Assembly (NCBI GenBank): GCA_029432815.1
Contig: JAROBA010000029.1
Span: 1 to 64,000, forward strand
From: Pontiellaceae bacterium B1224
GTDB lineage: Bacteria; Verrucomicrobiota; Kiritimatiellia; Kiritimatiellales; Pontiellaceae
DNA: 64,000 bases
Direction of reading: 5' to 3'
Shown: piece by piece, positions 702 to 49,002 of the stretch
Numbering within the stretch: position 1 is the first letter of the stretch
Layout: each line of letters starts with the position of its first letter
Program-made: the position numbers and the translations under genes
The notes under the pieces: model-generated
What the model was told of the DNA's origin: nothing
What the model saw: only the letters and a program-made list of their open reading frames with translations
Databases searched by the model: none

Positions 702-3026
702 TTAAGCGTTCAACGATCTCTCCAGCTTCTTCGGCAGGTTCATGCCGTACATGGAATTGTAGATCACGGCGAGGTTTGAGAAGACCATTCCGATGGCGCA
801 GTATTTTGGAGATAGCCACCCCATGCCGGCTACTAACATTCCAATCGCATTGTACACGAAAGCCCACACATAGTTCATGCGGATTTTATGGCGGACCTTG
901 CGTTGCATGAACGGCAGGTCGCATAGTTTTCCAATCTCTGGAACCATGAAAACGCCGTCGGCACTCATCTTGGCGGGAATCTGCCCGGAGAAGACCGCGA
1001 GACCAAAGTCGGCGGTGGCCAGCGCCTGCGCATCGTTGATGCCGTCGCCCACCATCATCACGGTTTTTCCCTGCTGCTGTAGCGCACTGATCTCTTTCTG
1101 TTTATCGCCGCTGCCCATTTCGCCGTAGAAATGCTCAATCCCGAGCTCACCGGCCACCAGCTCCACGACCGCTTTCCGGTCGCCGGAAAAGATATACGAA
1201 TCGACGCCGCGTTTTTTCAGATCGGCAATCAGCTGCTTTGATTCATCGCGCACCTGATCCTGCAGTCCCACCATGCAGTAACACTTTTCCGCATCGCCGA
1301 ACATGACGATGGTCGACTCCTTCAGATCGGGCGGAATTCCAATGTTTGGAAAAAGTTCCGCACTGCCGGCCAGCCAGTGCTTACCCTCCACCTGAGCGGA
1401 AACGACCGTTCGGGCAATGGTGCGGCCCTCAACGGGCCGGGGCGTGCCCACCACCGCCAGGGCACGGGCAATTGGATGCTCGATGCCGTTTTCCAGGGAA
1501 GCCAGAATATCCAGATATTTCTGATCTTTATCCTCCAGCCAAACGACTTTATGCACCTCGGGTGCGCCGCGGGTCAGCGTGCCGGTTTTATCGAAAACGG
1601 CGACCGCCGGTTTGAGTGCCAGCACGGCTCCGTTGAAAATCTGAATGCCCAGGCCGCGCACCTTTTCAATGGCGGCGGTCAGCACCAACGGCTCGGCAAT
1701 TCCAAAGGCGCACGGGCAGGCTACAATCAAAACGGCAAGCATCCGGATAATCGCCACATGCCAGTCGCCCCAGTAAAGATTGACAGCCAACGCCAACAAC
1801 GCAAACACGACAACAACCGGAACAAAATACTGGCTGATCTTATCGCCAAACGATAACTGCTTTTTTCGGGTATTGAAGGCTTCGATCGTACTCTCGACAA
1901 TTTTCTGAATCAGGTTGCTCTGCCCGCCGGCCGGCACGGAGAGTCGGGCATCGTCGGTCAGCAGCTTGGCGCCAGCCCCCACATAGTGCCCCTGCTCGAG
2001 CGACACGCCGTGCGACTCCCCGGTGATCAGGCTGAAATCGAATTCGGCCGAACCCATCAGGATTCCATCGGTTGGAACAAACTCGCCGCGCTTGACGAGG
2101 AATTCCTGCCCCGGAACCAAATCCTCAACAGCGGCATAATCCTCCTCCACATCGACACTTTCAACCCGTGCTTTTTTCGGTAGCTGCCAGGAGAGTGAAC
2201 TGACGCGTCGGCTCAGCTTTTTGTAGAAACTTCCCGAAATCAGGTTTCCCGTTTCAATGAGCATTAGCAGCAATGCAACCACATCAAAATAGAGCTCGGC
2301 AAAGTTACCGGTCAGCATTGAATAAAATGAAAAGAGCCAGGCGGCCATCGTTGATATAACCACCAGACTTTCCATCCGGTATTCCCTCATCATGATCTGC
2401 TTGAAGCCATAGATCATCGTGGTCTTCGCCGCATACAACGGAACGAGCGTGCCGAACAGCGCCAACAAAATGGAACAAACCACCTGCATGGCGAACGGCA
2501 CTTCCCACTTTTCAGCAGAAAGTACCACGAAGGAGATCATCATATTGTTCAGCGCGAAAAACCAGCCGGCGCCGAAGCGGAAATAGTCAAAGCCGTCGCG
2601 CTGCGAATCATCGCCTTCGTAATATTTATAGCCCAGCTTTTCGACACTCGCATGAATGTCGTCTTTGCCGATTTGCATGGGGTCGTAGCTGAGCGTGCAG
2701 GTTTCGGCGATGAAGTTGAGGTTCACATTTCCAACCCCTGGAAGTTTGCCGAGGCGGTTATGCACGAGCCAGGAACAGGCCGGACACACCATGCCGCCCA
2801 CCAGGAAACAGAGATCCTGTCCGTTTTCGATTTCGGCCTCCTGCCCGTCGATCTCCTCGCCGCCGGGAAAGACGCCTTCGAGTAGCTGGTTAATTCGTTC
2901 GTCCCGCTCGGAACCTTCGAGCCCCATCTTGCCAATTATGACATGCACCGCCGCACAGCCGGGACAGCAGAAATCGCCCTCCCCGCCGGGAACACTACGA
3001 TTACAAACTATGCAATGGTCGGCCAT
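702..3026 (-). CDS. ccoI: Cu-translocating P-type ATPase, CcoI/FixI type
   Basis: A 774-residue P1B-type ATPase that exports copper needed for cbb3 oxidase assembly. The N-terminus has the cysteine-rich CcoI zinc/copper-binding head (C5, C8, then CCPGC near 20-24), followed by a heavy-metal-associated domain with CPAC at 81-84. Further on are TGES (about 335), the transmembrane CPC ion site in ACPCAFGIA (about 439), the phosphorylated aspartate in DKTGT (about 479) and the hinge MVGDGINDAQ. Eight or so membrane helices are evident. It is the last gene of a long minus-strand respiratory locus, and its neighbour is another copper-handling protein. The cysteine head and the context favour CcoI over a general CopA. 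Four copies of the dispersed TTCCA-N5-TGGAA palindrome lie inside it. Confidence 0.93.
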   Translation of the reverse strand: MADHCIVCNRSVPGGEGDFCCPGCAAVHVIIGKMGLEGSERDERINQLLEGVFPGGEEIDGQEAEIENGQDLCFLVGGMVCPACSWLVHNRLGKLPGVGNVNLNFIAETCTLSYDPMQIGKDDIHASVEKLGYKYYEGDDSQRDGFDYFRFGAGWFFALNNMMISFVVLSAEKWEVPFAMQVVCSILLALFGTLVPLYAAKTTMIYGFKQIMMREYRMESLVVISTMAAWLFSFYSMLTGNFAELYFDVVALLLMLIETGNLISGSFYKKLSRRVSSLSWQLPKKARVESVDVEEDYAAVEDLVPGQEFLVKRGEFVPTDGILMGSAEFDFSLITGESHGVSLEQGHYVGAGAKLLTDDARLSVPAGGQSNLIQKIVESTIEAFNTRKKQLSFGDKISQYFVPVVVVFALLALAVNLYWGDWHVAIIRMLAVLIVACPCAFGIAEPLVLTAAIEKVRGLGIQIFNGAVLALKPAVAVFDKTGTLTRGAPEVHKVVWLEDKDQKYLDILASLENGIEHPIARALAVVGTPRPVEGRTIARTVVSAQVEGKHWLAGSAELFPNIGIPPDLKESTIVMFGDAEKCYCMVGLQDQVRDESKQLIADLKKRGVDSYIFSGDRKAVVELVAGELGIEHFYGEMGSGDKQKEISALQQQGKTVMMVGDGINDAQALATADFGLAVFSGQIPAKMSADGVFMVPEIGKLCDLPFMQRKVRHKIRMNYVWAFVYNAIGMLVAGMGWLSPKYCAIGMVFSNLAVIYNSMYGMNLPKKLERSLNA

Positions 3027-3860: not shown

Positions 3861-3875
3861 TTCCAAGCATTGGAA
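3861..3875. repeat. Dispersed palindrome TTCCAAGCATTGGAA
   Basis: A perfect six-base-arm copy of the window-wide TTCCA-N5-TGGAA element. It lies in the 64-base gap between the TauE-like gene and the coiled-coil protein gene, just downstream of the latter's stop. Confidence 0.85.
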
Positions 3876-4648: not shown

Positions 4649-7600
4649 CTATTCCGACTCAAATTCCAGTCGGTAAAACCCAGTATCTTCCACCGTATGG
4701 ACCGTATCGGTGTAGCTTTCGATCGGGTAAGGAATGCCATTGGTCAGCGGCACAAATGGGTTGAGCAGATCGTCTGTCCACAAAATGCCGTAGAGCTGGC
4801 CCGAGACGGACACCCAGTTAAGCACATAGCCGCCCGGCGACATATGCCCAAAGATGCTGATACCCGGATGCGAAAGCGGATTCGTGGGATCGGTGCCGGC
4901 AACAAACTCTTCATAGTTGGTGTAGCCGTCACCATCTGAGTCGGCATCGTCGCCGGGATAACCGTCGCCTTCGGAACACAGAACGGTGAGCCGGTAGAAA
5001 CCGGTTTCCTCGACGGCGTGGACCGTGTCGGTGTAGCTGCCCTGCGGGAAGACGATGCCATCAGCGAGTGTCGCGAACGGATCGGCCAGGCTTTCGGCCC
5101 AGAGCACCCCGTAGATGCAACCTGCAAGCGGCGTCCAGTGGATCACGTATCCGGCGGGCGAATCGTTCCAGTTTTCGATCCGGAGTTCTCCGGAATAACC
5201 ACCCGGGAAGTATTGATTCATCCACTCTGGGGTGACGCCCGCGTTTCCACGGTGTCCGGTATCGGGCGCACTGTATCCACCATAACCTCCGTCGCCGCGG
5301 GACCGCACGAAGTAGAAGTACGTGCGATTTTCCTCCCCACTGAGATCGGAGTAGATATTCGAGCTCACATTTCCGCGATAGGACGCACCGGATATCGTGT
5401 TGGTGTGGTTGCGGTAGATATAGTAGGTCGTCGCTCCCGCGAGAGGATCCCACGTGATCTCCGTTCGGTCGGTGTAGTCGCCATCGGTGGCCCGCACATT
5501 CACCGGCACGCCGAGCGGTTGCTGGATGACGGTGAAGGTTTGGCTGGCGACGGTGACGGTTCCGGTACGCGCAACGGTATTGCCGTACGCAGATACGCTG
5601 TAGGCAACGGTACCGTTGTTGGTGCCGGTCAAACCGGAGTCGATGGTTATCCAGTTGAGACTTTCGGCAGCTGTCCAGAGCGTTCCGGCGGGGGCGGTTA
5701 CCTCAATAGTTCCGCTGCCGCCGAGTGACGAAAACGCGCTCATGGCCGGTGAGATGGTGCCGCTGCCGGGGCGCCAGCCGGAATCACTGTCGCTGAACCA
5801 GGCCGTATTGGTTTTGCCGGCCACGCTGGCCCAGTAATAGTAGAGCTGTCCGGGCTCGGCGGTGGTGTCATAGTAATATGAAGAATTGTGACCCACCGCG
5901 ATATGATCTGCGGAGGAAGGATCATCCACTGTGTTTCGCCATACCTCGTAATTGCCCACTCCGGTAATACTGCTCCACGAGACAAGGACATCGTCGGCGC
6001 GGGTCCCATCCGTCGCGCTGAGATTCTGCGGAATTTCGGGCGCACGACTGCCGTTCATAACGAGACTGAATGGCTCGGACGTTCCACCAGGATTGACAAC
6101 CGTGAAGTAGTAGGTCTGGTTCGGTCGCCACGGCCACTGATCATTCTGGCGCAATAAGTAGCGATTGTCCGATCCATTCCCGTTGAACCAGTAGCGATGA
6201 TCCGATGTCGTTTTCGATGGCAGCGTCCCCTGCTCAAGATAGACGTTCAGTGCCGAAGTGTTGGTGGTGCTATGAATCCAGCGCACGGCATCGGGCGGCA
6301 CCTCAACCTGATAGGTAACTTCGGTTCCGGCCGGTATATTGGTGCTGATAAAACCGGTTTCGAAGTCGACCTTTTCATAGGAGGGAATCGTCCCTCCACT
6401 CGTGGCAGAGCTGATGGAGAAGGATGCATCGGAGCGAGCCAGGAAGCCGAGGTAGTAAACGTGTCCGGGTCGCAACGGCGGCACATTGAGGGTGTGCGTG
6501 CCGGTGTCGGGGTACGTTGGCCGCGGGTTACCCGTGTTTTTTTGATCCTTATTCCAATCGCGGATAAAATTGTCAGCAACGGTTGAGCTGTTACCGGGCG
6601 GAACGGTATCGCGCAGATAAAGGTCAACATTGCCGGATTCCTGCGAGTAGGTAATATTCCAGTTGACCGGTGCATTCGTGGGAACTTCGACGCGATAGTG
6701 TCGCCAATCGCCTTCGGCCAGCAACTGGACGGTATAACCGGAATCATTAAGCATCAGTGACTGAACGTTACCTCCTGCATAAACGTTTCCTCCGGAAAGC
6801 TTGAGGCGGTAGCGGGCATTGCTATCGCCATCGGCTTTAACCATGATGTACCACGTTCCGGCCTCAAGCCGATCGGCGTAGCGACCATCGTGGGGCACCC
6901 AGTTTCCATATTCGGTATTGGCATTGCTGTCGAGGCGGTGGTCATACTGGACTTGGTAATTGTAGTAATAGTAGTCCAGCGTCGGGGCATTGCCCACACG
7001 AATATAGAGATTCGGATTTCCGCTGATTGCTTCCAACTGCGTACGCAACAATCCGGCATTATTCTCCGGTACCGTGACTGAATAGAAGTGGTAATAGCCA
7101 TTTTCAAGGTCGATGCCCTGGTCAATCGGCAAGGGATCGCCGGCGGGATCGACCCCACTGTCACCAAAGAGCGGAATGTCAAGACCGGGCGTACTGATGG
7201 CTTCTCCCATGGCGGGCATGGTCCATTCGCGTTCCATCCAGATGGCAGAACTGGTGAGCGTGTAACTCGTAACCCCGCCCCCTTTGACCTCGACGTACCA
7301 TGTGCCGGGCGTCAGGAGGGGAGGAACAACGACTGCGGCCGGAGATGAAAACGGGGATTGCGTTATCCCTCCACCGGCATCATCCGGCGGCAGATCCTTA
7401 CGGACGCGAACCTGCGCAGCACCTTGTGAGGTGGTGGTTGTGAGATACCAGCCGACGATCGGTTCGCCATCGATCATGGCGGGCACATCGACGCGGTAGT
7501 AATCGCGCTGGTTATCGGCGAGTAAACCACCGGACATATTTGAGTTTCCATTGGTATTCAGTAACGCATCGAAATTGAGTTCGGCAGGTACCTTATGCGT

Positions 7601-10600
7601 AATCAGGAAGCGGTATTCCCCGTTCTGCAGGGCCGTTTCTCCATCATGGTCGGCCACTACGACGGACCAGGTGCCCGTCCCCGGATTGGGAACGGTGAAA
7701 ACCGACTCGCTGTAGTGGTTATAGGAATAGCCGGAGTAGAGGCCGTAAGCCGGACCGTAAGGCAGGTTGCCGTCTTTGCGCAGATAGAAGCGAGGATCAC
7801 CAACGGCAATATCCATCAACCGCAGTTCGATGGCACCGGTGGAGTTGGTGACATTGAAGCGGTAGAGATTATCGGCCTCACCCGCCTCGTAAAGATTGGT
7901 CACTGAAAGACTGCCACCCATGGGAATATTTCCAAGGTCTGGAACCGTTTGTTCGCCCAGGCTGTGCAGAGCGAAGCTTGACGAGCCGCTTCCGCTCCGG
8001 TTGTTGACCGGGTTATCCCCGAGGCTGACCACCATCAGATAATAGGTACCGCCCGGAATGGTCGTGGCATCGTTTTCAGGCAGCAGGATATAGTGTTCGT
8101 TGTCCGGTTTGTCCAAACGCACCATGGAGTTAAAGCTGTAGCCGGGCGAATTATTACCATCCTGTCCCTGGCTCCAGGTGGGCACATGCGCCTCCCGGAT
8201 GTATAGCGAAGATTCGCCCTCTATGTTTTCGAGTGCAACCTTCCAGTTGGCCATCCCCTCCGGCACATCGACTGCAAAATACTTAACGTCTCTAGCGGGA
8301 AGATTGCTGACCACAGTGCTGCTGTTGAAATCGACCGACAGCGGACTGTATGTCATACCGGTGCCGATGCCGCTGCTGACGAAACTGAAGTTGCCGGTAA
8401 CGGTGGTCGAATTGTTGTAGAAACCAATATAGTAGGTTCCGGGTTCCAGTGGAGCGCCCATACCCATGGAGAGCAGATACTTCGGGTAGGTAACCGATCC
8501 ATCGGAAGAATAGGTGCGTTGCGACCAATCGCCGTTGGAGGTTCCCCACTGAAAACCGCTGGGCCAGGTGGTATAGGACCAGGGGTAGTACCACCCCGGG
8601 ACGCCCGATGTGGAAGGAAGCTCATCGCGCCGGATATACATGGTGGGCCGGGTTCCGCTCCACTCCGAAGTCCGTAGCTCCCAGCCGACGACATCCTGTC
8701 CCCCGACTTGTTCCGGAACTTCGATCGTATAGTATTTCCATGTTGAAGGAGGCAGCGCTACACCGGACTCACCACCGCCGTCAAAGACAACATCAGTCGT
8801 ACCGGAGAGGTTGATGTTCAATGTATAGCTCCCCTCTTCAATCGAAGCGGCGGATCTTGAGTCATTGACCATCAAAGACCAGGTACCGGCTTCAGGTTCT
8901 GTGATGTTGATTATTGAAAGGTCTGTATCATCATACACGTATCCGGAGTAGACACCGTAGTTTGCTCCATAGGGGAAATTCGTATCGAGACGCAGGCTCA
9001 TTTCGGGACTGCCGACGCGGTCATCGAGCCGGATCTGCATGTTCTGTACGCCTGCGGGCACGGTGAATGAGTAGCGTCGAATCTCGCCCTTTCCATAGCT
9101 GCCCGTTTGTGTTGTCGTGCCGGGACTGTTCAGGATTCCAATATCGATGACATCGGCTTCACCCCAACTGTGCAGAATGGCGGCGGATGTGCCGGTTCCA
9201 ATGGTATTGCCGGAGGGTTGCTGCCCGTCGGAAACGACCATCAGGTAATAGTCCCCGGCCGGAATGTTGATTTCCCCATTTTCGGGAAGGAGAGTGAAGT
9301 GCTCGCCCCCTCCGATTTTCAGGCGGGTCATACTGCTGAAAGAATAGCCCGGCGAGGTGGTATCGCCCGAGCCAGCCTGCCAGGTCGGCACACGTGCTTC
9401 GCGAATGTAAAGCTGTGTTTCACCTTCTGTGTTTTCCAGTTCGACCTGCCAGGACGGTGTATTGGAAGGCACGGTGACTTTAAAATATTCCACCGCGCGG
9501 GCGGCAAGGTTGGTGATGAGTGCGAGACCGCCATCGAAGGCGATCGTCTGCGGTTCATAGGTCATGCCCATGCCAATGGCGCTACTGGCAAAACTGAAAG
9601 TTCCGGTTACGGTCTGGGAACTGTTGTAGAATCCGACATAGTAACTGCCGGGCTCAAGCGGAGCGCCCATTCCCATGGAAAGGAGGGTTTGTGGATAGGC
9701 CTGGCCATCGGGGTCGTAAGTGTAGCTGCTCCAGTCGTTATACTGCGTACCCCACTGCTGTCCGCTCGGCCAGGTGGTATAGGTCCAGGGATAGTACCAA
9801 CCCGAAACGCCGTACGGTGCCGGCAAAAGGTCGCGGCGGATATACATGGTCGGGCGTGCATTGATCCACTCCGTCATCCGCAGTTCCCAGCCGAGCACAT
9901 CCTGTTCGTTGGTTTGCACGGGTATATTGACGTGGTAATAAATCCACTCTTCCGGCGGAAGGATAACGTCTGCATCGCCGCCTCCGTCGAAAATGAAGTC
10001 TGTGTAGTTCAGTGCATGCACTTCCAGCGAATAAGCACCCGATGCCGGATTTCCGGCCTGCCCGACCACCACCGACCAGGTTCCTGTCGACGGACTGGCG
10101 TGCGTCGTGATATGCGTATCAGAAAATTCGGAAGTAGTTCCGGAATACAATCCGTAGCCCGGACCACTCGGGAATGTCCCATCACGTCTCAGATAGTATG
10201 TCGGGGTACCCACGGTGTCTTCGAGGCGCACCTCGATGGCCAATACATCCGGTCCCACATCGAACTGGAACAGATCGGTTTCTCCAGATACGAAAGAGCC
10301 GGAATCAGTCAACATGCCCCCATGGTTAATGGTACCCAAAGAAGTGATCGGCGCTTCGCCGAGACTATGCAGAATGGCGCTGCTGGTTCCGGTTCCAATG
10401 GTGTTTCCGGAGGGCCCTTGCCCCTCACTGACGACCATCATGAAATAGGATCCTGCGGGAATCGTTGCCTGTCCCAGTTCTGGCAGCAGCATGAATCGTT
10501 CATCACCGCTTTTCACCAGGCGGGTCATTCTGGAGAAATTCTGACCGGGCGAGATGGTGTCGCCGGAACCCATCTGCCAGGTAGGCACCAATCCTTCACG

Positions 10601-13600
10601 GATATAGAGTTGGGATTCACCCACGGTGTTTTCGAGTCGGATACTCCATGAGGGGCTGTTGGATGGCACGTTGACCTGAAAATATGCGACCGCACGCGCG
10701 GATAGATTCGTAATAACGGCACTGCCACCGTTGAATGCAATTTCCGGAACGTCGTAGTTCATATTTGATCCGATGGCACTGCTGACAAAACTGTAGCTTC
10801 CGGTGACGGTCGATGAGCTGTTGTAGAACGCGACATAATAGCTGCCAGGCTGTAGCGGCGCGCCCATGGCCATGGAGAGCAGCGTTTGCGGATAGGCTTG
10901 TCCATCAGGATCGTAGGTATAGCCTGTCCAGTCATTGTACTGTGTTCCCCACTGACGTCCGCTTGGCCAGCTTGCAGAGGTCCAGGGGTAATACCAGTAC
11001 GGAACGCCGGACGTTGCCGGAAGCTGGTCGCGGCGGATATACATGGCGGGACGCTCGTCTTCCCACTCCGTCATCCGAAGTTCCCATCCGATGACGTCCT
11101 GACCATTGGTCTGGGCAGGGATGGTGACGCGGTAAAAGTCATAGCTGTTCGGTTCAATCTGAACGGTTAAATTCGTGTAGCCATCAACAGGAAATACGAT
11201 GGGATCATGCGAACCGCTATCCAGAATAAAGGGGCCGATCGGGCCATCTGGATAATATACGCCCACGTACCAGATATCTGCTTCGTGGTCTGGATCCTGC
11301 AGGAATCCCAGCATGCTGGACTGGTCGTTGTAGGAAGTTTGACGGATGGTGGACGTTTCGTTCTGCCGGTAGTTCCAGCGGCCGGGCACATAGTTGCGGC
11401 GGATCGCGATTTCGGTGCCGGGAATATGGTCTTTCAACTGGAGAAGCCACCCCAGCTGGCCGAGCTGCTGGTCAATATCCGAAACCTTGAAGTAGCTCCA
11501 TCCGACATGATCAGGCACGTCGTTGGTGGTGCTGCTGATGAAGTCGATATCCGTCAGAATCGGCTCGCGGTTACGGAGATTGAATTCAAACGAATCATCT
11601 CCGTAGACGGTCACGTAGAACGTTCCGTCCGAAAGCGTGGTCGGCACCAGAGTGGTGCAGTCGTTGATGCTGGAACTGCTGTTTTCTGAAAAGGCATCAT
11701 TATTGAGGGGGTTCGGAACCTGACCAAGCCGCACAGCAACATCCGGATTGGTTCCGCTGTTGGGGGTCACGGTTACTTCCCAGGCAATCTGTTGGGGCGG
11801 AACCGGAATGCGATAGGTCTTAAAGAGGAAGCCGGACTGAGACTGGCCGGAGAGTGTTTCGTTGAAGTTTCCATTTGTTATTTCCTGCTGGCGCGAGTCG
11901 AACCGAAAGGTTTCGTTGGGTGTTCCCGGAACACCGACATAGTAGGAAGTGGCACTTCCTGGCACCAGATACGGGGGCACAAAGAGCCATTGACCGGTAC
12001 GCGTATAGTCATAGTAGCCCGCGTTCGAAGGATGAGGAGCATAGCTTGTCTGGACATAAAACTGTTTATCGAGGGTAGCGCTTCCGGAGCCGTTCTGCAG
12101 CCAGATGCGCCAGGCCTCGGCTTCGGATGGGATGATCGTTTTAAAGTATCGGATGGTTTCCGGCGGGATGGTGGCGACAAGGCCGCGCTCGTCGCCGCCC
12201 GCTGCGGGAAGTGTGCCGAGATCACGGGCGTAGACATCGCCTGAATAGAGATTCCAGATCGCGTTATCATCGGCCGTGACCAGGAAATACCACTCTTGGC
12301 CAGCCCCCGTGGTCGGGGATAAATAACGCGTGAACCCGTCGTCCCCCAAACGGATGGAGCGGTCGCTATAGGCATGAGCCAAATTATTGGTATATGGAAG
12401 ACTGTTCTCCCTGATAAAGAGATCGGCATTCGTCACGCTGGTCAGATCCAAAGCAATGCGCCAGGCTGCGAGATCCGGCAACTCCGTGATAAACCGGTAG
12501 AAGTAGGCTCCTCCATAGGAGTCGGTTTGCGGGTATATCTCCGAACCGCGGTCGGCGGTTCCCGGATCCCAATCCATTTCGGTGAGGAAGATATCCCCGG
12601 CAAACAGGCTCCACTCGGCTCCCTCTTCGGCGTCGACCAACAAGTACCACGTGTCCCCTGCAGTCAGGGGTTGCAGAATGGTATCACTGAGCAGGCTTTC
12701 AGCCAGATATGTGTAGGAATTCGTGGTCACATCGACATTCTGCTTCAGGTAAAGATCCGCCTCGCCACCGTCAACCATCAGTACTGAGCGCCAAAGCCCG
12801 AGCGATCCGGATTGTGTGGTGATTTCAAACAGGTAACTTCCTTCTGCCGTAATCGGATTGTCAAAAACCGTTGTTCCAAGCTGGGCTGTTCCGGGATCCC
12901 ACGCCAGACTTTCCACATGAAGATCGCCGGCAAAAATATTCCAATCCGCGTTATCTTCCATCTCCACCAGAATATACCAGGTTTCTCCGGATTGGAGGGG
13001 TTGTGTGATGGCATCGCTGGCGTTGCTATCGGACTTGAGCGTATAAGAATTGGTAGAGACATTCACATTCTTCTTCATGTAGAGATCGGCTTCTCCGCTT
13101 TCCACCCGGAGTACCGTTCGCCAATGGCCCCACGATCCGGCGGTGGTCTCTGTATCGATCTTAAACAGATAGCTTCCTGCCTCGGTAAATGTATTGGTGA
13201 ACCCCAGCGTCCCCATTTGTTCTGCTCCCGGATCCCATGAAAGATTCACAACATGAAGATCTCCAGCAAATAGACTCCATTGCGTATTTGCATCCGCCTC
13301 CACCAGAATGTACCAGGTTTGCCCGGCCGAAAATGATTGGGTGATCGTGTCATGACCGGGGTCTTCGGATTTTAAAGTATAAGAGCTGTCAGACACATTA
13401 ACGCTCTGCTTCATGTAAAGATCCGCCTCTCCGCTTTCCACCCGTAGCACCGTGCGCCACAGATTGTATGCACCGGCCGGTGTGGTTATTTTATAAAGAT
13501 AACTGCCTGGCTCCGTGATGCTGTTGGTCAATACCTCGGTTCCCAACCGTTCGTTCCCCGGGTCCCATGTCAGATTTTGGACATGAAGGTCACCGGCAAA

Positions 13601-13990: not shown

Positions 13991-14152
13991 CGTACCCTCC
14001 CAAGGTGTCGGCCCCTGCCCGAGAGCCGTTGCACTCCTCTTACACCCGCAACGCAACCCGTTCAAGGAATAAATTTTCGATAAAAAAATTTCGATGACAC
14101 GCTCTGTTTAAAACAGAACTAAAACCGGAGAGAGAAGGTCTTTTAGCAATTA

Positions 14153-27454: not shown

Positions 27455-27529
27455 CAATTAAGGTTAAAGAAAGAAAGCCTGAAATAAACGACTAATCGTA
27501 TCTGAATAATTGCTTTCACGACTCTCTCC

Positions 27530-30872: not shown

Positions 30873-30887
30873 TTCCAAGGATTGGAA
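30873..30887. repeat. Dispersed palindrome TTCCAAGGATTGGAA
   Basis: An exact copy whose symmetry extends outward to ten-base arms (AATTTTCCAA / TTGGAAAATT). It lies three bases after the stop of the second mscS gene and before its terminator. Confidence 0.85.
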
Positions 30888-34966: not shown

Positions 34967-34981
34967 TTCCAATGGTTGGAA
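34967..34981. repeat. Dispersed palindrome TTCCAATGGTTGGAA
   Basis: An exact copy in the 5' region of glnS, with symmetry extending outward through the flanking T and A runs (TTTTTCCAA / TTGGAAAAA). Confidence 0.85.
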
Positions 34982-35014: not shown

Positions 35015-36670
35015 ATGAGCGAAGAAATCAAGACCACCAATTTTATTCACGACATCATCGATGCCGACCTGGCCTCGGGTAAACGTACAGAAATCGTCAC
35101 CCGCTTCCCGCCGGAGCCCAACGGCTACCTCCATATCGGGCACGCCAAAGCCATCACGCTCGATTTCGGCACCGCCGAAAAATACAACGGCAAATGCCAC
35201 CTGCGCTTCGACGACACCAATCCGGAAGCCGAAGACGATGAATATGTTAAAGCCATTCAGGAAGATATCGCATGGCTCGGCTACAACTGGGGCGACCACA
35301 TCTACTGGGCCTCCAACTATTTCGACACGATGTATGAATACGCCGTCCGCCTGATCAAAAAAGGCAAGGCCTACGTCTGCGATCTTTCCTCCGAAGAATT
35401 CAAAGACTATCGCGGTGCCCCCACCGAACCCGGCAAAGAACCGCCCGGGCGCGAGCGCTCTGTGGAAGAAAATCTGGAGCTGTTCGAAAAAATGAAAGAC
35501 GGCGGATTCGAAGACGGGGCCTGCGTACTGCGTGCCCGCATCGACATGACCTCCCCCAACCTGCACCTGCGCGACCCGGCGATCTACCGCATTAAACGCG
35601 CCCACCATCACAACACCGGCGACAAATGGTGCATCTATCCGATGTACGACTTCGCCCACTGTATCGAAGACTCCATCGAAGGCGTCACCCACTCCATGTG
35701 CACACTCGAATTCGCCGTGCACCGCCCGCTCTACGACTGGATTCTCGCAGAACTCGAAATCTTTCAGTCGCAGCAGTATGAGTTTTCTAAACTCAACCTC
35801 ACCTACGTCGTGCTCAGCAAGCGCCGCCTCTTAGAACTCGTTAACGAAGGTCGGGTTTCCGGTTGGGACGACCCCCGCATGCCGACCCTTTGCGGAATGC
35901 GCCGACGCGGCTTCACGGCCAACGCCATTAAAAAACTCTGCGCGATCGTCGGCTGCACCAAGTTTGAAGGCATCACCGAAATCGAGCAGTTCGAAAGCCT
36001 GATCCGCGACGACCTGAACGAAAACTCCCTGCGCGCCATGGGCGTGGTGGATCCGATTAAAGTCGTCATCGAAAACTATCCCGATGACCTCACAGAAGAG
36101 TTCGAAGTAGCCAACCATCCGCAGAAAGAAGAAGAAGGAAAACGCACCGTCCCCTTCAGCCGCGAACTCTGGATTGAGCGCACGGACTACATGGACGATG
36201 CGCCCAACAAATTCAAGGGTTTCACCATCGGCCGCGAAGTACGTATTCGCGGGGCCTATCTGGTCACCTGCAACGCCGTTGAAAAGGATGCCGATGGAAA
36301 CGTCATTTCGCTCTCCTGCACGTACGACCCGGAAACCAAAGGCGGCAACGCCCCCGATGGCCGTAAAGTACGCAGCACCATCCACTGGGTTTCCGCCAAA
36401 CATGCCATCGATGCCGAGGTCCGCCTCTACGACCGCCTCTACACCGTCGAAAATCCGCTCGGTGACAAAGAGAAGGACTTCAAGGACTTCATCAACCCCG
36501 ATTCACTCGAAGTCATCACGGCCAAACTCGAACCGGGCCTCGCCAACGCCGAACCCGGCACCCGCTACCAGTTCGAGCGCGTCGGCTACTTCTGCGCCGA
36601 CAAAGAGCATACACCCGAAAAGCCCGTCTTCAACCGAACCCTAACCCTCCGCGCTCCGCGGAAAAAATAA
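35015..36670 (+). CDS. glnS: Glutaminyl-tRNA synthetase
   Basis: 551 residues of class I synthetase. The nucleotide motif PPEPNGYLHIGHAKAI (HIGH) is near 30-45 and VVLSKRRLLE (KMSKS equivalent) near 270. The GlnRS-specific anticodon-binding beta barrels follow. It charges tRNA-Gln with glutamine; GlnRS in bacteria other than gamma-proteobacteria is patchy and thought to have come from eukaryotes. It is followed 2 bases later by a tyrosine phosphatase gene, so the two may be cotranscribed. Confidence 0.97.
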   Translation: MSEEIKTTNFIHDIIDADLASGKRTEIVTRFPPEPNGYLHIGHAKAITLDFGTAEKYNGKCHLRFDDTNPEAEDDEYVKAIQEDIAWLGYNWGDHIYWASNYFDTMYEYAVRLIKKGKAYVCDLSSEEFKDYRGAPTEPGKEPPGRERSVEENLELFEKMKDGGFEDGACVLRARIDMTSPNLHLRDPAIYRIKRAHHHNTGDKWCIYPMYDFAHCIEDSIEGVTHSMCTLEFAVHRPLYDWILAELEIFQSQQYEFSKLNLTYVVLSKRRLLELVNEGRVSGWDDPRMPTLCGMRRRGFTANAIKKLCAIVGCTKFEGITEIEQFESLIRDDLNENSLRAMGVVDPIKVVIENYPDDLTEEFEVANHPQKEEEGKRTVPFSRELWIERTDYMDDAPNKFKGFTIGREVRIRGAYLVTCNAVEKDADGNVISLSCTYDPETKGGNAPDGRKVRSTIHWVSAKHAIDAEVRLYDRLYTVENPLGDKEKDFKDFINPDSLEVITAKLEPGLANAEPGTRYQFERVGYFCADKEHTPEKPVFNRTLTLRAPRKK

Positions 36671-36672: not shown

Positions 36673-37143
36673 ATGAAACCTCTCCGCGAAGTAAAACTCA
36701 ACCTGCCCGGCAAGCTCTACCTGCACAGCATGCCCGGAAAAGAAGAACCGCTTGCCGAATGCTTCCAGGCATTGGAAGACGCATCGGTGGACCACGTCAT
36801 CTGTCTGAGTCCGATAGAAGAGGTTCAGGATAAATCTCCGAAGTATGCGGAAGCGATTCAAAGCAATACCCTGCCCTGCGGCCTCATCCATTTCCCCCTC
36901 GGCATCGGCGGAGTTCCCGAAGATACCGAACCGTTTCTAAACCTTGCACGGGATGTCGCCAAACAATTGGAATCTGGTTCCAGCTTCCTGGTTCACTGTA
37001 AAGGCGGCGTCGGACGAACCGGCACCATGGCCAGCTGTATTGTCGCGGCAGCAAATCAACCCCTCTCCCTCATCACCGACGCCGGCGGCAAAGCCGAAAC
37101 CGAAGAGCAGCAGGCACTCATTGCTTCATTAAAAAGCATGTAG
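36673..37143 (+). CDS. Small protein tyrosine/dual-specificity phosphatase
   Basis: 156 residues. The catalytic P-loop is VHCKGGVGRTGTMAS (about 108-122; nucleophile Cys, invariant Arg), and the acid loop is probably FPLGIGGVP (about 79), though a clear catalytic aspartate is not obvious there. It resembles CDKN3/DUSP-type cysteine phosphatases. It starts 2 bases after glnS. A palindrome copy at 36763-36777 encodes FQALE. Confidence 0.9.
   Translation: MKPLREVKLNLPGKLYLHSMPGKEEPLAECFQALEDASVDHVICLSPIEEVQDKSPKYAEAIQSNTLPCGLIHFPLGIGGVPEDTEPFLNLARDVAKQLESGSSFLVHCKGGVGRTGTMASCIVAAANQPLSLITDAGGKAETEEQQALIASLKSM
36763..36777. repeat. Dispersed palindrome TTCCAGGCATTGGAA (in CDS)
   Basis: An exact TTCCA-N5-TGGAA copy inside the phosphatase gene, read as FQALE. 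Confidence 0.8.
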
Positions 37144-43144: not shown

Positions 43145-44356
43145 TTAATCGTTATCCGGATCGTCGGGCAGGAGGATATGCAGGAGGAGGTTGGCAAGCA
43201 TACCAACCAGGGCGGCAAGACCGATTCCTTCAATGGTTACATTCCCGATGACCACTTTGACGCCGCCCAGGCCGCAGACCAGAATCAGCGCCACGATGAT
43301 CAGGTTGCGGCTGCGGTTAAAATTCAGCTGAGCATTGGAGATGGTACGAATGCCGACCGAAGCAATCATGCCGAACAGGATAAAGCTCACCCCGCCCATG
43401 ACCGCCACCGGAATGGTGCGGAGGAAGGCCCCGACCGGGCTGATGACGCCGAGAATAATCGCGAAGCCGGCAGCAATCCGGATGACGCCCGGATTATAGT
43501 TTTTCGTCACCGCCAATACGCCGGTGTTTTCAGAATAGGTGGTATTCGGCGGACCGCCGAACATTCCCGACACCATCGTCGCCAGACCGTCGCCAAGCAG
43601 TGTGCGGTGCAGGCCGGGCTTCTCGAAGAAATCCTTTCCAACGACCGCACCATTGGTCGTAATGTCGCCGATATGCTCCATCACAGAAACAATTGCAATC
43701 GGCATGATGGCTAGAATCGCGGAAATTCCAAACTTTGGAAACGTGAAGTTGTCGGCACCGATAAAGAGTCCGCCCGTATTCTGCATCGCGGCATAATCCA
43801 CCCGACCGAGCGCAGCCGCCACCGCATAACCCGCAAAAATACCGATCAGAATCGGAACCAGTTTAAAGAAGCCTTTCATAAAACAGGAGATGGCAATAAT
43901 CGTGAGCATGGCCACCAGAGCCAACAGCCAATCGGCCGAGGCCATACCGACACCGATCGGTGCCAGCGAAAGACCAATCACCATGATCACCGGACCGGTC
44001 ACGACCGGAGGAAAAAGTCGTTTCATAATGTTGGTTCCACCCAGTTTTACAATCAGCGACATGATCAGATAGACAACTCCGGCGCAGATCACTCCGCCCA
44101 GCGCATAAGGCAAACCGTTTCCATCTTCACCGGCGACAGCTTTGATGGCACCGATAAAGGCAAAACTGGAGCCCAGAAAAACCGGAACCATTCCACCGGT
44201 CACCCCATGAAAAATAAAGGTCCCGATTCCAGCAGCCAACAACGCCACACTCGGATCCATTCCGGTCAGTGTGGGCATCAGTACCGTCGCCCCGAACATA
44301 GCAAATACGTGTTGAACCCCTAACAATAGTTTCTTTGGCACCCCGATCTCATTCAT
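43145..44356 (-). CDS. Uracil/xanthine permease (NCS2 family)
   Basis: 403 residues with about fourteen hydrophobic segments. The N-terminal signature [16 protein letters not shown] and the later SSFAFIGAI are typical of UraA-like members; the conserved glutamate-bearing segment around [15 protein letters not shown] is the substrate site in helix 10. It imports uracil or a related nucleobase with protons. It is monocistronic as far as can be seen. A palindrome copy (43726-43740) encodes FPKFGI. Confidence 0.92.
43726..43740. repeat. Dispersed palindrome TTCCAAACTTTGGAA (in CDS)
   Basis: A perfect-arm copy inside the permease gene, read on the minus strand in the codons for FPKFG. Confidence 0.85.
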
Positions 44357-44508: not shown

Positions 44509-46815
44509 ATGACAACTGAGACATCCGCATTCGATCCCGTTCCGTTCGCTTCGAAAGACCTCAACATACCCGCGCGGCAGGTTGCCGCAGTTGCCGCGCT
44601 GTTTGCCGAAGGCAATACCGTCCCGTTCATTGCGCGCTATCGTAAAGAGGCCCACGGTAATCTCGATGAAGTGCAGATTACTGACATTCAGGAAAAGCTG
44701 TCCTATTACAACACGCTCGAATCCCGCCGGGTGACGATTTTAAAATCCATCGAGGAACAGGGCAAGCTGACCGACGAGCTCCGCCTGAAAATTGAAGGGT
44801 GCCTTTCGAAGACCACGCTGGAAGACCTATACCTCCCCTACAAACCCAAGCGCCGCACCCGCGCGATGATCGCCCGCGAAAAAGGACTGGAACCGCTGGC
44901 CGAGCTTATCCTGACGCAAGCGGCCTCCGGTGACCCTGAAGCCGAAGCTGCGAAATATATCAGCGAAGAAAAAGAAGTCCAATCCTTGGAAGACGCACTG
45001 GCAGGTGCCCGCGATATTATTGCCGAACAGATTGCTGAAAAGGCCGAAGTGCGCGCCCTCATCCGCGAAGCCTATTTTAAAACCGGAGAAATCAAATCCT
45101 CGCCTGCGCTTTCAACTCAGGCCGATGAGGAATCAAAATACAAAGACTACTTTGACTTCTCGCAGCCGATCGATGCCATTCCTTCCCACCGATACCTGGC
45201 CATCCGCCGCGGTGAAACCGAGGGCGTGCTGCGCCGCAAACTGGCGATCGACGCCGACCCGCAGATCGAACGCATGAAACAGATGGTTGATGCCAATCCG
45301 GCCTCCCCGTTTTTCCAGGAATTGGAAAAAGCCGTGCTCGATGCCTACAAACGGTTGCTGACCACCAGTGTTGAAATCGACGTTTCCGTGGAAATGAAAA
45401 TGAAGGCCGACCGTTCCGCCGTGGAAATCTTTGCGAAAAATCTGCGCAGCCTATTGCTGGCCGCTCCCTATGGCGAAAAGTCCGTCATCGGGATCGACCC
45501 CGGTCTGCGTACCGGTTGCAAATGCGTGGCGCTCGATGCCACCGGCAAATATCTCGATACCATTACGATCTACCTCGGCCAAGGCGCCGACAAAGAAAAG
45601 CAGGCCAACATCAAGCTCTCGGAATTTATCGAGAAACATCAGCCGATGGCGATTGCGGTCGGCAACGGCACCGCCGGCCGCGAAACAGAAGCGTTTACCA
45701 AAGCCCTGCTGAAAGATATGCGCTCCAAAATCAGCGTCGTATCTGTGAGCGAAGCCGGAGCCTCCGTCTACAGCGCATCGCCCATCGCCCGAGAAGAATT
45801 TCCGGACCTCGATCTCACCATTCGCGGCGCCATTTCCATTGCCCGGCGCCTGCAGGATCCGCTGGCCGAACTGGTGAAGGTCGATCCGAAATCCATCGGC
45901 GTCGGCCAATACCAGCACGATGTCTATCAGCAGCTCCTGAAGGATAAACTTGATGAAGTGGTCGTCAGTTGCGTGAACCGCGTGGGCGTTGAGCTCAACA
46001 CCGCCAGTGCCCCCCTGCTCTCTCGTGTGGCTGGCATCGGCGACAGCCTCGCTAAAAAAATCGTGGACTACCGCAATGAACACGGCGCCTTTAAATCCCG
46101 CGAAGAACTTCAGAAAGTTTCAGGACTCGGACCGCGCGCGTTCGAACAGGCCGCCGGATTCTTACGCGTTCGCGGCGGCGAGCAGCCGCTCGATGCCTCC
46201 TCCGTTCACCCGGAGCGCTATAAACTGGTCGAGCAGATTGCCGCCGACCTCGGGGAACCGCTGAATAAACTGATCGGGAACGTTGAAGTCGTCAGCAAGA
46301 TCAAACTCTCTACCTACCTCAGCGATGAGGTCGGCGAACTGACCCTGAAAGATATTATCGACGAGCTGAAAAAACCGGGTCGTGACCCACGTGAACAATT
46401 CGAGGAAGTCGGCTTCCGCGAAGATGTGATGACGATGAAAGATCTTAAGGAAGACATGGAGCTGAAAGGCATCGTCACCAACGTGACGGCCTTCGGCGCG
46501 TTCGTCGATATCGGTGTGCATCAGGATGGCCTCGTGCACATTTCCCAGCTATCCAATCAGTTTGTGAAAGATCCGGCCGACGTCGTGCAGGCCGGCGACC
46601 GCATCGACGTCCGCGTCCTCGAAGTTGACCTGCAGCGCAAGCGCATTTCTCTTTCCGCCAAGAAGAAGGGCGCGGCCAAACCTTCCAATGATCGGAAGTC
46701 CCCGGAGGGCAATAAAAATCGGGGGAAGCGCCCGAAGAATAATTCGCATAACAACAACCGCAACCGCGCGAATAAGCCGCGCGGTTTCTCCAACAACCCC
46801 TTCGCAGATTTGTAA
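44509..46815 (+). CDS. tex: RNA-binding transcription accessory protein Tex
   Basis: 768 residues. In order: Tex N-terminal helical domain (EGNTVPFIARYRKEAHG near the start), YqgF/RNase H-like domain (VIGIDPGLRTGCKCVALD, about 325), helix-hairpin-helix pair (LNTASAPLLSRVAGIGDSLA), and an S1 RNA-binding domain (GIVTNVTAFGAFVDIGVHQD, about 650). A basic, Asn/Lys-rich tail of about 50 residues follows. Tex binds nucleic acid and RNA polymerase and affects transcription and stress resistance. It converges with the surface-protein operon six bases after its stop. Palindrome copies lie at 45313 and, with one mismatch, at 44977 and 46683. Confidence 0.96.
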   Translation: MTTETSAFDPVPFASKDLNIPARQVAAVAALFAEGNTVPFIARYRKEAHGNLDEVQITDIQEKLSYYNTLESRRVTILKSIEEQGKLTDELRLKIEGCLSKTTLEDLYLPYKPKRRTRAMIAREKGLEPLAELILTQAASGDPEAEAAKYISEEKEVQSLEDALAGARDIIAEQIAEKAEVRALIREAYFKTGEIKSSPALSTQADEESKYKDYFDFSQPIDAIPSHRYLAIRRGETEGVLRRKLAIDADPQIERMKQMVDANPASPFFQELEKAVLDAYKRLLTTSVEIDVSVEMKMKADRSAVEIFAKNLRSLLLAAPYGEKSVIGIDPGLRTGCKCVALDATGKYLDTITIYLGQGADKEKQANIKLSEFIEKHQPMAIAVGNGTAGRETEAFTKALLKDMRSKISVVSVSEAGASVYSASPIAREEFPDLDLTIRGAISIARRLQDPLAELVKVDPKSIGVGQYQHDVYQQLLKDKLDEVVVSCVNRVGVELNTASAPLLSRVAGIGDSLAKKIVDYRNEHGAFKSREELQKVSGLGPRAFEQAAGFLRVRGGEQPLDASSVHPERYKLVEQIAADLGEPLNKLIGNVEVVSKIKLSTYLSDEVGELTLKDIIDELKKPGRDPREQFEEVGFREDVMTMKDLKEDMELKGIVTNVTAFGAFVDIGVHQDGLVHISQLSNQFVKDPADVVQAGDRIDVRVLEVDLQRKRISLSAKKKGAAKPSNDRKSPEGNKNRGKRPKNNSHNNNRNRANKPRGFSNNPFADL
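45313..45327. repeat. Dispersed palindrome TTCCAGGAATTGGAA (in CDS)
   Basis: An exact TTCCA-N5-TGGAA copy inside tex, read as FQELE. Confidence 0.8.
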
Positions 46816-46821: not shown

Positions 46822-49002
46822 CTACAACTCTACTCCGTACGGAATTTCGACGCGCATACGGTAGTAGCGGGGAGAGGAGGGGGCTGAACTTTCGAAGTGC
46901 TCTACCTCTCCTGTACCGGCATAACCTCCAAGCAATCTCCAATCAACCGGACTCAGCGAATCGGTATATTCGATAACGTAGATTCGCCCATACGCAGTGG
47001 AGCTGAAGATTTGGACAGTGCCGTTGCCGGAAGCCGACACGGTGAAGTTAAGGTGTGAAGCGGGATTGGTCGGATCGGAGCCCATCCGGAATTCATCCAA
47101 ATTCGTATAGCCGTCGTTGTCTGAATCGAGCGAGGCAACCGCACCTTCCTCCGATGCGAAGTAGGTTTGCTCCCAATCATTCGGCAGCTCATCGCCATCC
47201 GTATCCGCTCTCGTTTTCCAGACAAAAGTCGTCGTGCCGACAGCGGACTGAACCTTAACCCGATAGTAGCGGTTGGTTCCCATCAGATTATCTTCATATT
47301 CCTCGACAAGACCGGTGCCGCTGAAAACCGCCAGCGTAGACCAGTCGGACGGCGTCAGCGAATCGGTGTATTCGATGGTATAGGTACGCCCAACGATCGT
47401 CGAACACGAAACCACCACAGCACCTGTAGTGGACGTTGTGTCGACGGACAGGTTGGGCTGCGACAGCCCATTTGTCGGGTCCGTACCGAGTATAAATTCC
47501 TGCGCGGCGGTATAACCGTCGCCATCCGTATCAGCTGTAGCGATCATGCCGGTTTCAGATCCCGAGAATTTTAATTCCCAGTCGTTCGGTAGGTCGTCCT
47601 GATCGTTATCGGCAATCCAGTTCCAGACAATGCTCGATTCGGGATCGCTCAAAAAAACCAGGCCGGTGGATGCGGAGCTTCCTTCCGCAGGAACAGAGCC
47701 GCTACCCGTCCAGCCCTTCATGACGTAGACCGTGTTGGAAACGATCACAACGGGATCAACCGAACAAGTGACTGTAGATCCCCACGCATATACATGGAAT
47801 CCGGCAGCAGGCGCAGGAGTTCCGGCCTGGGAGATCACGGACAGGGTGTAATCCCTTGCGTCTACATAAGTAACAACTGTCCCGGATACAGAAACCCCCG
47901 CTTTACGCACAGTTCGAAAACCATCGAAGACGGTCGCTCTGTCTGGGAATTGCAGAAAAATGCTGCCACAACGCAAGTATTCGGCACCATCGATCCAACT
48001 TCCGTCATGCATGTAGCGAGAACCGTCGACGACATCCTCATCCCAGCACCATTCAGCAACATTTCCTGAGACATCGTAAAGTCCATATCCATTGGGAGCA
48101 AAGGTACCTGCCGGACTCGTGCCGGGCCAATCCGTGCTGAAGTCTGGATGGAAACCTCGTGTGGAACTCGTATCGTAGTTGTATTCAGAAGAACTGAAAT
48201 AGTTGGCCTCGTTATGGGTAATCTGATTCCCCCAGGCAAAACGGCTTGCTACCCCGCCGCGGGCGGCATATTCCCATTCTTCGCCAGTCGGCAGTCGGTA
48301 GCCGGTTGCCCCGGCATCCACATCGGGAATCAGAACGCCACTTCTGTAGGTTGTCCCGCCAACGCTGTAACACGGTTCAATTCCTTCCATCTCGCTGCGG
48401 GCATTGCACCATTTCACACAGTCGTACCAATTGACGGTTGTTACGGGATGGTTGTTCGAGATCGCGAACCCCTCATGGTTGAAATCGTAACCGTTTGTCA
48501 CGGCCCAAATGTAAACCGAATCCCATACATGTTTCGTAATTTCGGTTTCATCCATGAAGAGGTTATTGGCAAGGGTTAGGCTGAAAGCACCAAAATCCGG
48601 ATCTGTTCCAGCGGTTGTTCCGGCAGGAACAAGTACGGTTCCATCCATTGGAACCGGAGTAATGTCCTGCCCATCGTCAGCCACCACCAGAAACTTGAGC
48701 CCGGCCGTATGCTGCCCGTACCAGTCGGCCCCGGCATCCCAGACGATGCTCTTTCCGGTTCCGGTTACAACCCCCGCTCCGACATCCCCGGAAAGCGCCG
48801 ACAGCGGCACCTCATCTTCACCATCGAACGCTCTCAGCGTGATGGTCACTGCGCCTGCGAAATCGCTTGAAACATCATACCCGACGGTAACGGTTTTAGT
48901 GCCGGTAACCTGAGCCGCCACCGTGTTTTCAACGGTCACCACCGCCTGAACCGACGAACCGAGAACCGGTATCAACCCTATCAGCATCCATTTAATTTTC
49001 AT
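46822..49002 (-). CDS. Secreted SUMF1-fold protein with calcium-loop repeats
   Basis: 726 residues with a signal peptide (KWMLIGLIPVLGSSVQA) and a SUMF1/FGE-type domain (about 140-380; NHPVTTVNWYDCVKWCNARS, GYRLPTGEEWEYAARGG, DGFRTVRKA). Where catalytic FGEs have two cysteines after GGS, this protein has DGSWIDGAEYLRC, so the cofactor cysteines seem absent and enzyme activity is doubtful. Two calcium-binding loops (DTDGDGYTAAQEF and DSDNDGYTNLDEF, each with a G-x-DPTN) follow. Two copies of the C-terminal module occur, the last ending RYYRMRVE. It is the last gene of the surface operon, 11 bases after the subtilase gene. Confidence 0.88.
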   Translation of the reverse strand: MKIKWMLIGLIPVLGSSVQAVVTVENTVAAQVTGTKTVTVGYDVSSDFAGAVTITLRAFDGEDEVPLSALSGDVGAGVVTGTGKSIVWDAGADWYGQHTAGLKFLVVADDGQDITPVPMDGTVLVPAGTTAGTDPDFGAFSLTLANNLFMDETEITKHVWDSVYIWAVTNGYDFNHEGFAISNNHPVTTVNWYDCVKWCNARSEMEGIEPCYSVGGTTYRSGVLIPDVDAGATGYRLPTGEEWEYAARGGVASRFAWGNQITHNEANYFSSSEYNYDTSSTRGFHPDFSTDWPGTSPAGTFAPNGYGLYDVSGNVAEWCWDEDVVDGSRYMHDGSWIDGAEYLRCGSIFLQFPDRATVFDGFRTVRKAGVSVSGTVVTYVDARDYTLSVISQAGTPAPAAGFHVYAWGSTVTCSVDPVVIVSNTVYVMKGWTGSGSVPAEGSSASTGLVFLSDPESSIVWNWIADNDQDDLPNDWELKFSGSETGMIATADTDGDGYTAAQEFILGTDPTNGLSQPNLSVDTTSTTGAVVVSCSTIVGRTYTIEYTDSLTPSDWSTLAVFSGTGLVEEYEDNLMGTNRYYRVKVQSAVGTTTFVWKTRADTDGDELPNDWEQTYFASEEGAVASLDSDNDGYTNLDEFRMGSDPTNPASHLNFTVSASGNGTVQIFSSTAYGRIYVIEYTDSLSPVDWRLLGGYAGTGEVEHFESSAPSSPRYYRMRVEIPYGVEL

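Follow-up and report, generated by a model that had tools for sequence, protein, structure and literature searches.

The 64,000-nucleotide stretch analysed here (positions 1 to 64,000 of contig JAROBA010000029.1 of Pontiellaceae bacterium B1224, hereafter the window) raises the question of why one short gapped palindrome, TTCCA-N5-TGGAA, recurs in it so often. The window contains 22 exact copies, every one of them at the coordinate given in the first-pass annotation, whereas 100 dinucleotide shuffles hold a mean of 0.05 and at most one. There are also 21 copies with a single mismatch; the 13 that had been listed are all present, and the list was incomplete, with further copies at 4688, 15044, 18340, 21259, 24799, 27293, 33781, and 53192. 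When gene calls are taken as greedy longest open reading frames (ORFs) rather than from a trained gene caller, 14 of the 22 exact sites lie within ORFs of at least 100 amino acids (aa), one of them (23266) in a doubtful 113-aa ORF, which is near the two thirds estimated previously. No mention of the motif was found among the open-access papers searched, nor anything on such a motif in the Kiritimatiellia among the titles listed, and the string TTCCA has no occurrence in the main text of PMC5217627.

The window is ordinary for its genome (G000; 5.38 Mb in 204 contigs, 96.7% complete), which has a total of 2237 exact sites, against three for the reversed control pattern, and whose mean of 0.42 sites per kb would give around 27 in a stretch of this length. 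Finer counts come from a 584-kb sample of G000, composed of the window, C11:1-120000, C138:1-200000, and C111:1-200000, which represents 11% of the genome and was not drawn at random. This sample holds 267 exact copies, where Markov models of order 2, 3, and 5 predict 1.7-3.3, together with a modest excess of one-mismatch copies (203, with 31-45 expected). The gap is strict, given that all 267 copies have five bases between the arms, and every other gap length from 0 to 20 has only 0-4 copies.

The anatomy of these 267 copies qualifies what had been claimed of their form. A purine (A or G) occupies position 6 in 96% of them, and the base at the centre is a G or a C in 92%. The fuller form TTCCAANNNTTGGAA, previously attributed to most copies, was overstated, as it fits only 10 of the 22 window sites, and TTCCARNSNYTGGAA is fitted by 16. 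The idea that symmetry is conserved, and not just sequence, is partly right, although positions 6 and 10 are a purine and a pyrimidine that are not strictly complementary (the pairs on the sense strands of coding copies are AT 93, GT 44, AC 28, and GC 9). Long arms are present in some copies, but a clear bias is found only at the base adjoining the 15-mer, which is T in 49%; C is avoided at the next base outward (11%), and the biases farther away are slight. The outermost T accounts for 91 of the 203 single mismatches and the fifth base for 68, which leaves TCC-N7-GGA as the strict core.

A strict core of this type recalls the highly iterated palindrome HIP1 of the cyanobacteria. By analogy, a solitary methyltransferase might mark TCC-N7-GGA or CCA-N5-TGG, with methyl-directed repair or conversion creating and maintaining the sites. 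The gapped palindrome and the concentration of deviations on the outer T and the fifth base, which leaves TCC/GGA strict, are in keeping with this, and the deviations of HIP1 also favour the outer positions, according to passages of PMC4390886. In the same passages, HIP1 and the alternate HIPs resemble the motif in being highly iterated palindromes of coding and non-coding DNA, widespread within one class but patchily distributed there. However, the motif is a 15-bp sequence with a five-base gap and T/A ends, whereas HIP1 is a contiguous, GC-rich octamer, and in the one family tested, HsdS (PF01420), no methyltransferase link emerges. Across 44 genomes, HsdS does not track the motif, with no PF01420 matches in the site-rich G387, G032, and G065, and four and 19 in the site-poor G050 and G394, respectively. 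Methylation would also leave the helical phasing described below unexplained, and this origin is considered unlikely.

The sites of the 584-kb sample lie both in genes and between them, with 186 copies in ORFs (0.35 per kb), 71 between ORFs (1.34 per kb), and 10 straddling an ORF edge. All of the coding frames are occupied (75, 70, and 41 copies, or 75, 71, and 41 if counted per ORF), whereas 15, 0.05, and 3.6 sites, frame by frame, remain once the synonymous codons have been shuffled. The codon-corrected null, named in the first-pass annotation as a test of the motif, is thus clearly exceeded in each frame. Site density has no consistent trend over five classes of gene GC content (0.28-0.42 per kb).

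The motif also leaves an imprint on proteins. In frame 0, the site is read as F-Q-x-L-E, and the translated sample has 73 occurrences of FQxLE (1.7 expected), whereas FExLQ, YQxLE, FQxVE, and FQxLD occur 2, 1, 5, and 8 times, respectively. The imprint is repeated in relatives (G225, 10 versus 0.2 expected; G245, 12 versus 0.2; G035, 20 versus 0.4; G387, 29 versus 0.4), and is weak in G380 (3 versus 0.2) and G388 (1 versus 0.2). In the site-poor genomes, FQxLE is absent from G050, G026, and G101, and occurs three times in G087 (0.3 expected) and once in G392 (0.1 expected).

Conservation between relatives, the second test that had been named, was evaluated for those window genes whose reciprocal-best partner, of at least 50% identity, lies in an 80-kb stretch around the Tex gene of a relative, with the expectation taken from the other positions of the same frame. 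The G000 sites are exact in the orthologues in 4 of 8 cases in G245, 4 of 8 in G225, and 5 of 9 in G035 (1.01, 0.85, and 0.71 expected), so that 13 of 25 are kept in these three site-rich relatives, against 2.57 expected, although these counts are not independent, because only nine distinct G000 sites, in few genes, enter them. In the reverse direction, 4 of 6, 4 of 4, and 5 of 8 sites are kept (0.79, 0.47, and 0.73 expected), or 13 of 18 against 1.99 when pooled. By contrast, none of three G000 sites is kept in G388 and none of four in G380 (0.27 and 0.31 expected), and neither of two in the reverse comparison with G380. In the kept sites, the ten fixed bases stay while the spacer letters sometimes differ, and, with two sites in gapped columns set aside, the sites replace aligned codons without gaps. 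Because the codon-shuffled null and the conservation in orthologues both turned out in its favour, the observation survives the two conditions under which it was to have been abandoned. The likeness to HIP1 and to uptake or architecture motifs, suggested at the outset, is apt, as the motif is abundant, occurs in all frames, is conserved in position, and has a mismatch profile of that kind.

High site counts are patchy and confined to the class Kiritimatiellia. Among 387 genomes of the phylum, none outside this class has more than 30 sites, and the counts range from 0 to 2297 within it, and from 5 to 2297 in the 29 genomes of the family to which G000 belongs. The site set of G380 looks to be eroding, as 12 of its copies are exact (0.7 expected), 23 have one mismatch (4 expected), and 68 have two (46 expected). 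No substitute palindrome stood out in samples of the site-poor genomes (G087, 120 kb; G050, 100 kb; G392, 38 kb; G026 and G101, 40 kb each; G107, 20 kb; G015, 9.5 kb), some of which are short enough to miss a rare one. In a separate observation, G061, a 2.4-Mb genome of another class, has no copies of the motif and 55 of the reversed control AAGGT-N5-ACCTT, which is perhaps another highly iterated gapped palindrome; the other 386 genomes have at most 15 controls.

Few motifs are known to exceed a thousand copies per bacterial genome, namely the uptake sequences, Chi, and HIP1, and each of them marks a basic process. The mismatch profile of the present motif, its location in genes, and its conservation in place are like those of the uptake sequences, and therefore an accumulation of sites driven by uptake or conversion is tentatively favoured over a chromosome-organising role, although its probability is put somewhat below an even chance. 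Under this reading, TTCCA-R-N-S-N-Y-TGGAA would be the site at which a homodimeric, sequence-specific protein recognises double-stranded DNA, with two half-sites lying approximately one helical turn apart. Where sites are clustered, as in some relatives, spacing by whole turns would place the dimers on one face of the helix. A genome-wide drive favouring site-bearing DNA, through the preferential uptake or recombination of self DNA, would build up and keep the copies, rather than selection acting site by site, and the site-poor relatives would have lost their sites or be losing them. Such a drive would resemble that of the Haemophilus and Neisseria uptake sequences, but with a palindromic signal read by a dimer.

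The uptake signal sequences (USS) of the Pasteurellaceae and the DNA uptake sequences (DUS) of the Neisseriaceae are, with HIP1, the closest comparison. Passages of PMC1939737 describe very many exact copies and a steep fall with mismatches, the excess in Haemophilus influenzae or Neisseria gonorrhoeae being 183 or 392 at a mismatch load of 0, 2.0 or 4.8 at a load of 1, and 0.22 or 0.65 at a load of 2. Uptake sequences are also common in genes and conserved in place (parts of PMC1939737 and PMC2397512), and a dialect-like variant of the motif is found in a congener, G394. The differences are that the motif is a gapped palindrome rather than a directional word, forms phased arrays in relatives, belongs to a different phylum, and is hardly depleted in atypical genes. 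It is not filed as an uptake sequence, since it is palindromic, is phased in relatives, and is not clearly depleted in genes with atypical codon usage.

A number of points weigh against the uptake- or conversion-linked drive. To our knowledge, competence has not been described in the Kiritimatiellia, and the uptake receptor ComP is not an intracellular dimer; the helical phasing in relatives points rather to an intracellular DNA-binding protein. Two-mismatch copies are not in excess in the 584-kb sample (401, with 371-416 expected). The known uptake sequences are not palindromes, according to passages of PMC1939737, and those of Neisseria are absent from recently acquired genes, as described in part of PMC2397512, whereas the density of the motif declines only slightly with codon atypicality, from 0.373 per kb in the least atypical fifth of genes to 0.328 in the most atypical. 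The ComEC proteins of the genus to which G000 belongs are short (427-665 aa, and one fragment of 115 aa) irrespective of the site count, and frames of 521-524 aa occur in G050 and G087, with 20 sites each, as well as in G225, which has 2297.

A ComEC match is present in 76 of 80 genomes, and the family genomes without one, G297 and G390, are both small and incomplete. When families f1 and f2 are excluded, ComEC frames reach 750 aa in 26 of the 27 genomes with at least 25 sites and in 6 of the 23 with fewer, or in 11 of 11 against 2 of 13 when counted by family; this comparison covers 50 genomes, with G396 left out, and is based on open-frame lengths, with both cut-offs chosen post hoc and kinship uncorrected. 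G387, from a sister genus, combines a frame of 930 aa with a short one. ComEC was nevertheless rejected as the cause of the site count, as it does not track it within the genus. A second, long ComEC-like frame (734-1369 aa) was also noted in 23 of the 80 genomes, from several Kiritimatiellia families (for example, at G090:C72, G115:C210, and G056:C9).

The helical phasing, in turn, bears on a role inside the cell. It was examined in arrays of closely spaced sites, at least 116 of which were selected for spacers of 14-19 bases. Among the array loci listed, neighbours are 31 bp apart in 92 cases and 32 bp in 101, with five each at 30 and 33 bp and none at 29 or 34 bp; among the matches listed, a further 11 neighbours are 21-22 bp apart. 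The phasing test excludes distances of 29-34 bp, and all-pair distances near 62-64 bp still follow from the selected ones, so that the value for all pairs of these loci (R=0.83, 115 pairs) is partly a product of selection, and only the 17 distances between neighbours that fall beyond the selected range (R=0.92) are free of it. Phasing is also found in G387 (R=0.87, 34 pairs, with none of 20,000 random sets as high), in which 2 of the 22 contigs were already known to carry sites when chosen and the other 20 were taken by number, and in G012 (R=0.94, 10 pairs, p<0.001), in a 40-kb stretch that was likewise chosen with its sites known. For G225, G245, and G035 jointly, R=0.49 (p=0.008 over all pairs, and p=0.056 for neighbours alone). 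The phasing in some relatives therefore suggests a dimeric protein on double-stranded DNA, and its absence from G000 (R=0.14, p=0.46) is a real limit on that suggestion.

Given this, the site may instead organise the nucleoid or mark self DNA, an account judged possible and less probable than the drive. It would be bound by an intracellular homodimer, possibly of the Fis helix-turn-helix type, that polymerises or forms bridges along a single face of the helix, and selection would keep enough sites per length of chromosome. The dyad with half-sites about one turn apart, the intolerance of other gaps, the 31-32 bp neighbour spacing in the listed array loci, the phasing in G387 and G012, and arrays that share no recurring neighbour gene family are all consistent with such a protein. 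Sites of the Fis and NtrC types are odd-length dyads of around 15-17 bp whose neighbours lie some 31-32 bp apart (rrnB, glnA), as in the motif, but the centre of Fis sites is A/T, whereas that of the motif is G or C in 92%, and the motif is not at promoters and has thousands of copies, most of them in genes. The same account is weakened by the lack of phasing in G000, and by the random spacing of sites along that genome, which is not regular (coefficient of variation 0.95; random 0.93), even with some clustering (24 gaps of at most 60 bp, with 7.1 expected). In the subset with one spacer form, mapped over whole chromosomes, the sites are uniform in G081 (40 sites, p=0.79) and give p=0.04 in G380 (19 sites); the spread in G081 counts in favour of the drive, as does the position of sites nearer to stops than to starts. 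Thousands of sites with an amino-acid cost would also exceed those of any nucleoid protein known to us.

A possible reader was sought among small, stand-alone Fis-like frames (approximately 74-150 aa), which are present in 10 genomes of the family, with a median of 186 sites per Mb, and scored as absent in 12, with a median of 20 (p=0.006, with G388 and G396 set aside, the partial 149-aa frame of G394 scored as absent, and kinship uncorrected). In G000, such a Fis-like protein is encoded at C127:175715-175831. The Fis hypothesis preceded this test, although the size criterion did not. The association is fragile, given that it falls to p=0.035 when G394 and G388 are scored as present and G396 as absent, and to p=0.11 when the incomplete G297 and G390 are also dropped. 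Frames of this kind are absent from the site-rich G012, G065, and G159, and from G397, G399, G403, and G404 (201-354 sites), and are present in G389 and G395, which have few sites.

The dyad and the phased arrays would also suit the operators of a transcription factor, as would G394, where the variant TTCCA-Y-N-S-N-R-TGGAA forms arrays immediately upstream of ORFs. However, coding copies outnumber intergenic ones (186 versus 71 in the G000 sample), and in none of four sets do divergent gaps have the highest density per kb, although in G000 a site is found slightly more often in them (21%) than in tandem (17%) or convergent (19%) gaps. Nor does any gene family recur near the arrays, where the largest protein cluster comes from three of the at least 116 loci. 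The idea of a regulon was dropped on this ground, and operators are regarded as improbable. The variant arrays of G394, which have a period of around 31 bp, are at L315 262-369 (C98), L316 50-179 (C99), and L307 74-263 (C250), those of L315 and L316 being the ones just upstream of ORFs. The ORFs of L316 match Hma/BREX/DISARM-like helicase, methyltransferase, and PglZ models, and one ORF of L315 matches PD-T4-6-type kinases.

Position relative to genes bears on another possibility, that the motif acts in RNA, either as an mRNA hairpin affecting stability or processing, or as an intrinsic terminator. Sites are closer to stops than to starts (medians of 42 versus 103 bp in G000, and 65 versus 102 bp in the listed array loci), and, among the 44 sites within 150 bp after a stop, a T4 run lies 3' of 10 and 5' of two, and an A4 run lies 5' of seven and 3' of one. 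The inverted repeats of the DUS double as terminators, according to part of PMC2397512, and a minority of the post-stop sites may serve in this way. By contrast, 34 of these 44 sites have no T run, 14 of the 22 window copies are within ORFs, and the sense-strand bias is merely slight (GT 44 versus AC 28). The letters are fixed rather than any stem, the 15-mer alone folds weakly (-3.1 to -3.3 kcal/mol in the seven window sites folded), and the phasing in some relatives belongs to the DNA helix, all of which disfavours the mRNA hairpin that had been proposed at first. No Rfam family matches the window at its gathering score. An RNA element is very improbable as an explanation of the whole set.

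A mobile palindromic repeat, spread by transposition in the manner of the repetitive extragenic palindromes (REP) and their associated tyrosine transposases (RAYT), is the least credible of the explanations considered, and would be a marked surprise. G000 has 11 Y1_Tnp matches, 10 of them above the cut-off, and arrays of 2-5 copies occur in relatives, but the flanks are hardly conserved and the orthologues have sites without gaps. The ten Y1_Tnp loci contain 16 exact sites in 29.2 kb, where 12.2 would be expected at the genome mean (P=0.17), and the link was rejected for want of enrichment. The intergenic palindrome arrays of the relatives are reminiscent of REP and bacterial interspersed mosaic elements (BIME), which differ from the motif in their conserved flanks and RAYT association, and in that the motif is mostly coding in G000.

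There is about an even chance that the motif is a palindromic, dimer-read code for self DNA outside the Proteobacteria, in which site-rich Kiritimatiellia would have approximately one site every 2-4 kb, a drive strong enough to write FQxLE into proteins, and a putative reader serving uptake, self-recognition, or chromosome structure. The motif adds a gapped, dyad-symmetric case from a class with few cultures. It also reshapes proteins, is naturally present or absent within a single genus, and bears on the question of whether iterated motifs spread by drive or by selection, while the helical phasing in relatives indicates the type of protein to look for.

The individual sites of the window illustrate these patterns. 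Four lie within the P-type ATPase ORF at 702-3026 (minus strand): TTCCAATCTCTGGAA at 929-943; TTCCAATGTTTGGAA at 1337-1351, which G245 and G225 keep, with other letters in the spacer, and G035 does not; TTCCATCGGTTGGAA at 2063-2077; and TTCCAACCCCTGGAA at 2729-2743, the last two being kept in G245 and G035 and not in G225. The sites that follow are TTCCAAGCATTGGAA, between ORFs at 3861-3875, TTCCAAGGTCTGGAA at 7930-7944, within the 3138-aa ORF at 4649-14065 (minus strand), and TTCCAATGATTGGAA at 14470-14484, in the ferredoxin-type ORF at 14153-14896 (minus strand), which is kept in G225 and G035 and not in G245 or G380. The intergenic TTCCACTATTTGGAA (22776-22790) and TTCCAAGCCATGGAA (22809-22823) form a pair 33 bp apart, and TTCCAAAGGTTGGAA (23266-23280), in the doubtful 113-aa ORF, has a one-mismatch copy 23 bp further on. 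The Ser/Thr kinase ORF at 24881-27457 (minus strand) contains both TTCCAGAGATTGGAA (25483-25497) and TTCCAGAAGCTGGAA (25998-26012). Between ORFs, TTCCAGACTCTGGAA (28666-28680) is again followed by a one-mismatch copy after 23 bp, TTCCAACGGTTGGAA (29834-29848) and TTCCAACGCTTGGAA (29851-29865) are an intergenic pair 17 bp apart, and TTCCAAGGATTGGAA is at 30873-30887.

Further along the window, TTCCAATCATTGGAA (33984-33998), in the ORF at 33759-34268 (plus strand), is not kept in G245, G035, or G380, and TTCCAATGGTTGGAA (34967-34981) is upstream of the glutamyl/glutaminyl-tRNA synthetase ORF at 35015-36670. Whereas TTCCAGGCATTGGAA (36763-36777), in the ORF at 36673-37143 (plus strand), is kept in G225 and G035, TTCCAAACTTTGGAA (43726-43740), in the ORF at 43145-44356 (minus strand), is kept in none of five relatives. 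The Tex ORF at 44509-46815 (plus strand) contains TTCCAGGAATTGGAA (45313-45327), read as F-Q-x-L-E, which is kept in G245, G225, and G035 and not in G388 or G380. The last site, TTCCATCCATTGGAA (48639-48653), in the FGE-sulfatase-domain ORF at 46822-49002 (minus strand), is not kept in G388. The rest of the window (48654-64000) has no sites, a GC content of 0.59, very large ORFs (1349 and 2378 aa), a subtilase, and an InlB-repeat-like domain. The length of this end, 15.4 kb, is close to what chance would give as the longest gap in 584 kb (mean 14.5 kb; longest observed, 15.7 kb).

Some array loci of the relatives have features of their own. At the end of G388:C4, positions 6151-11708 of L314 form an inverted repeat of around 5.6 kb, with 96% identity to its own reverse complement. 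An array in an rRNA operon of G388 was considered and rejected, as there is no Rfam RNA there and the inverted copy most likely arose when the assembly folded back on itself at the contig end, because of which the eight triple arrays of this genome are an inflated count. In G159, two similar units around 1.5 kb apart (L024, 9940-10200 and 11450-11600) each consist of TGTCGGATATGCCGACA followed by a two-site array. The sequence IMGVR_UViG_3300035698_006241 (L157, L160), which is filed as viral and may be a Kiritimatiellia phage or host DNA, contains nine sites, several of them 31 bp apart.

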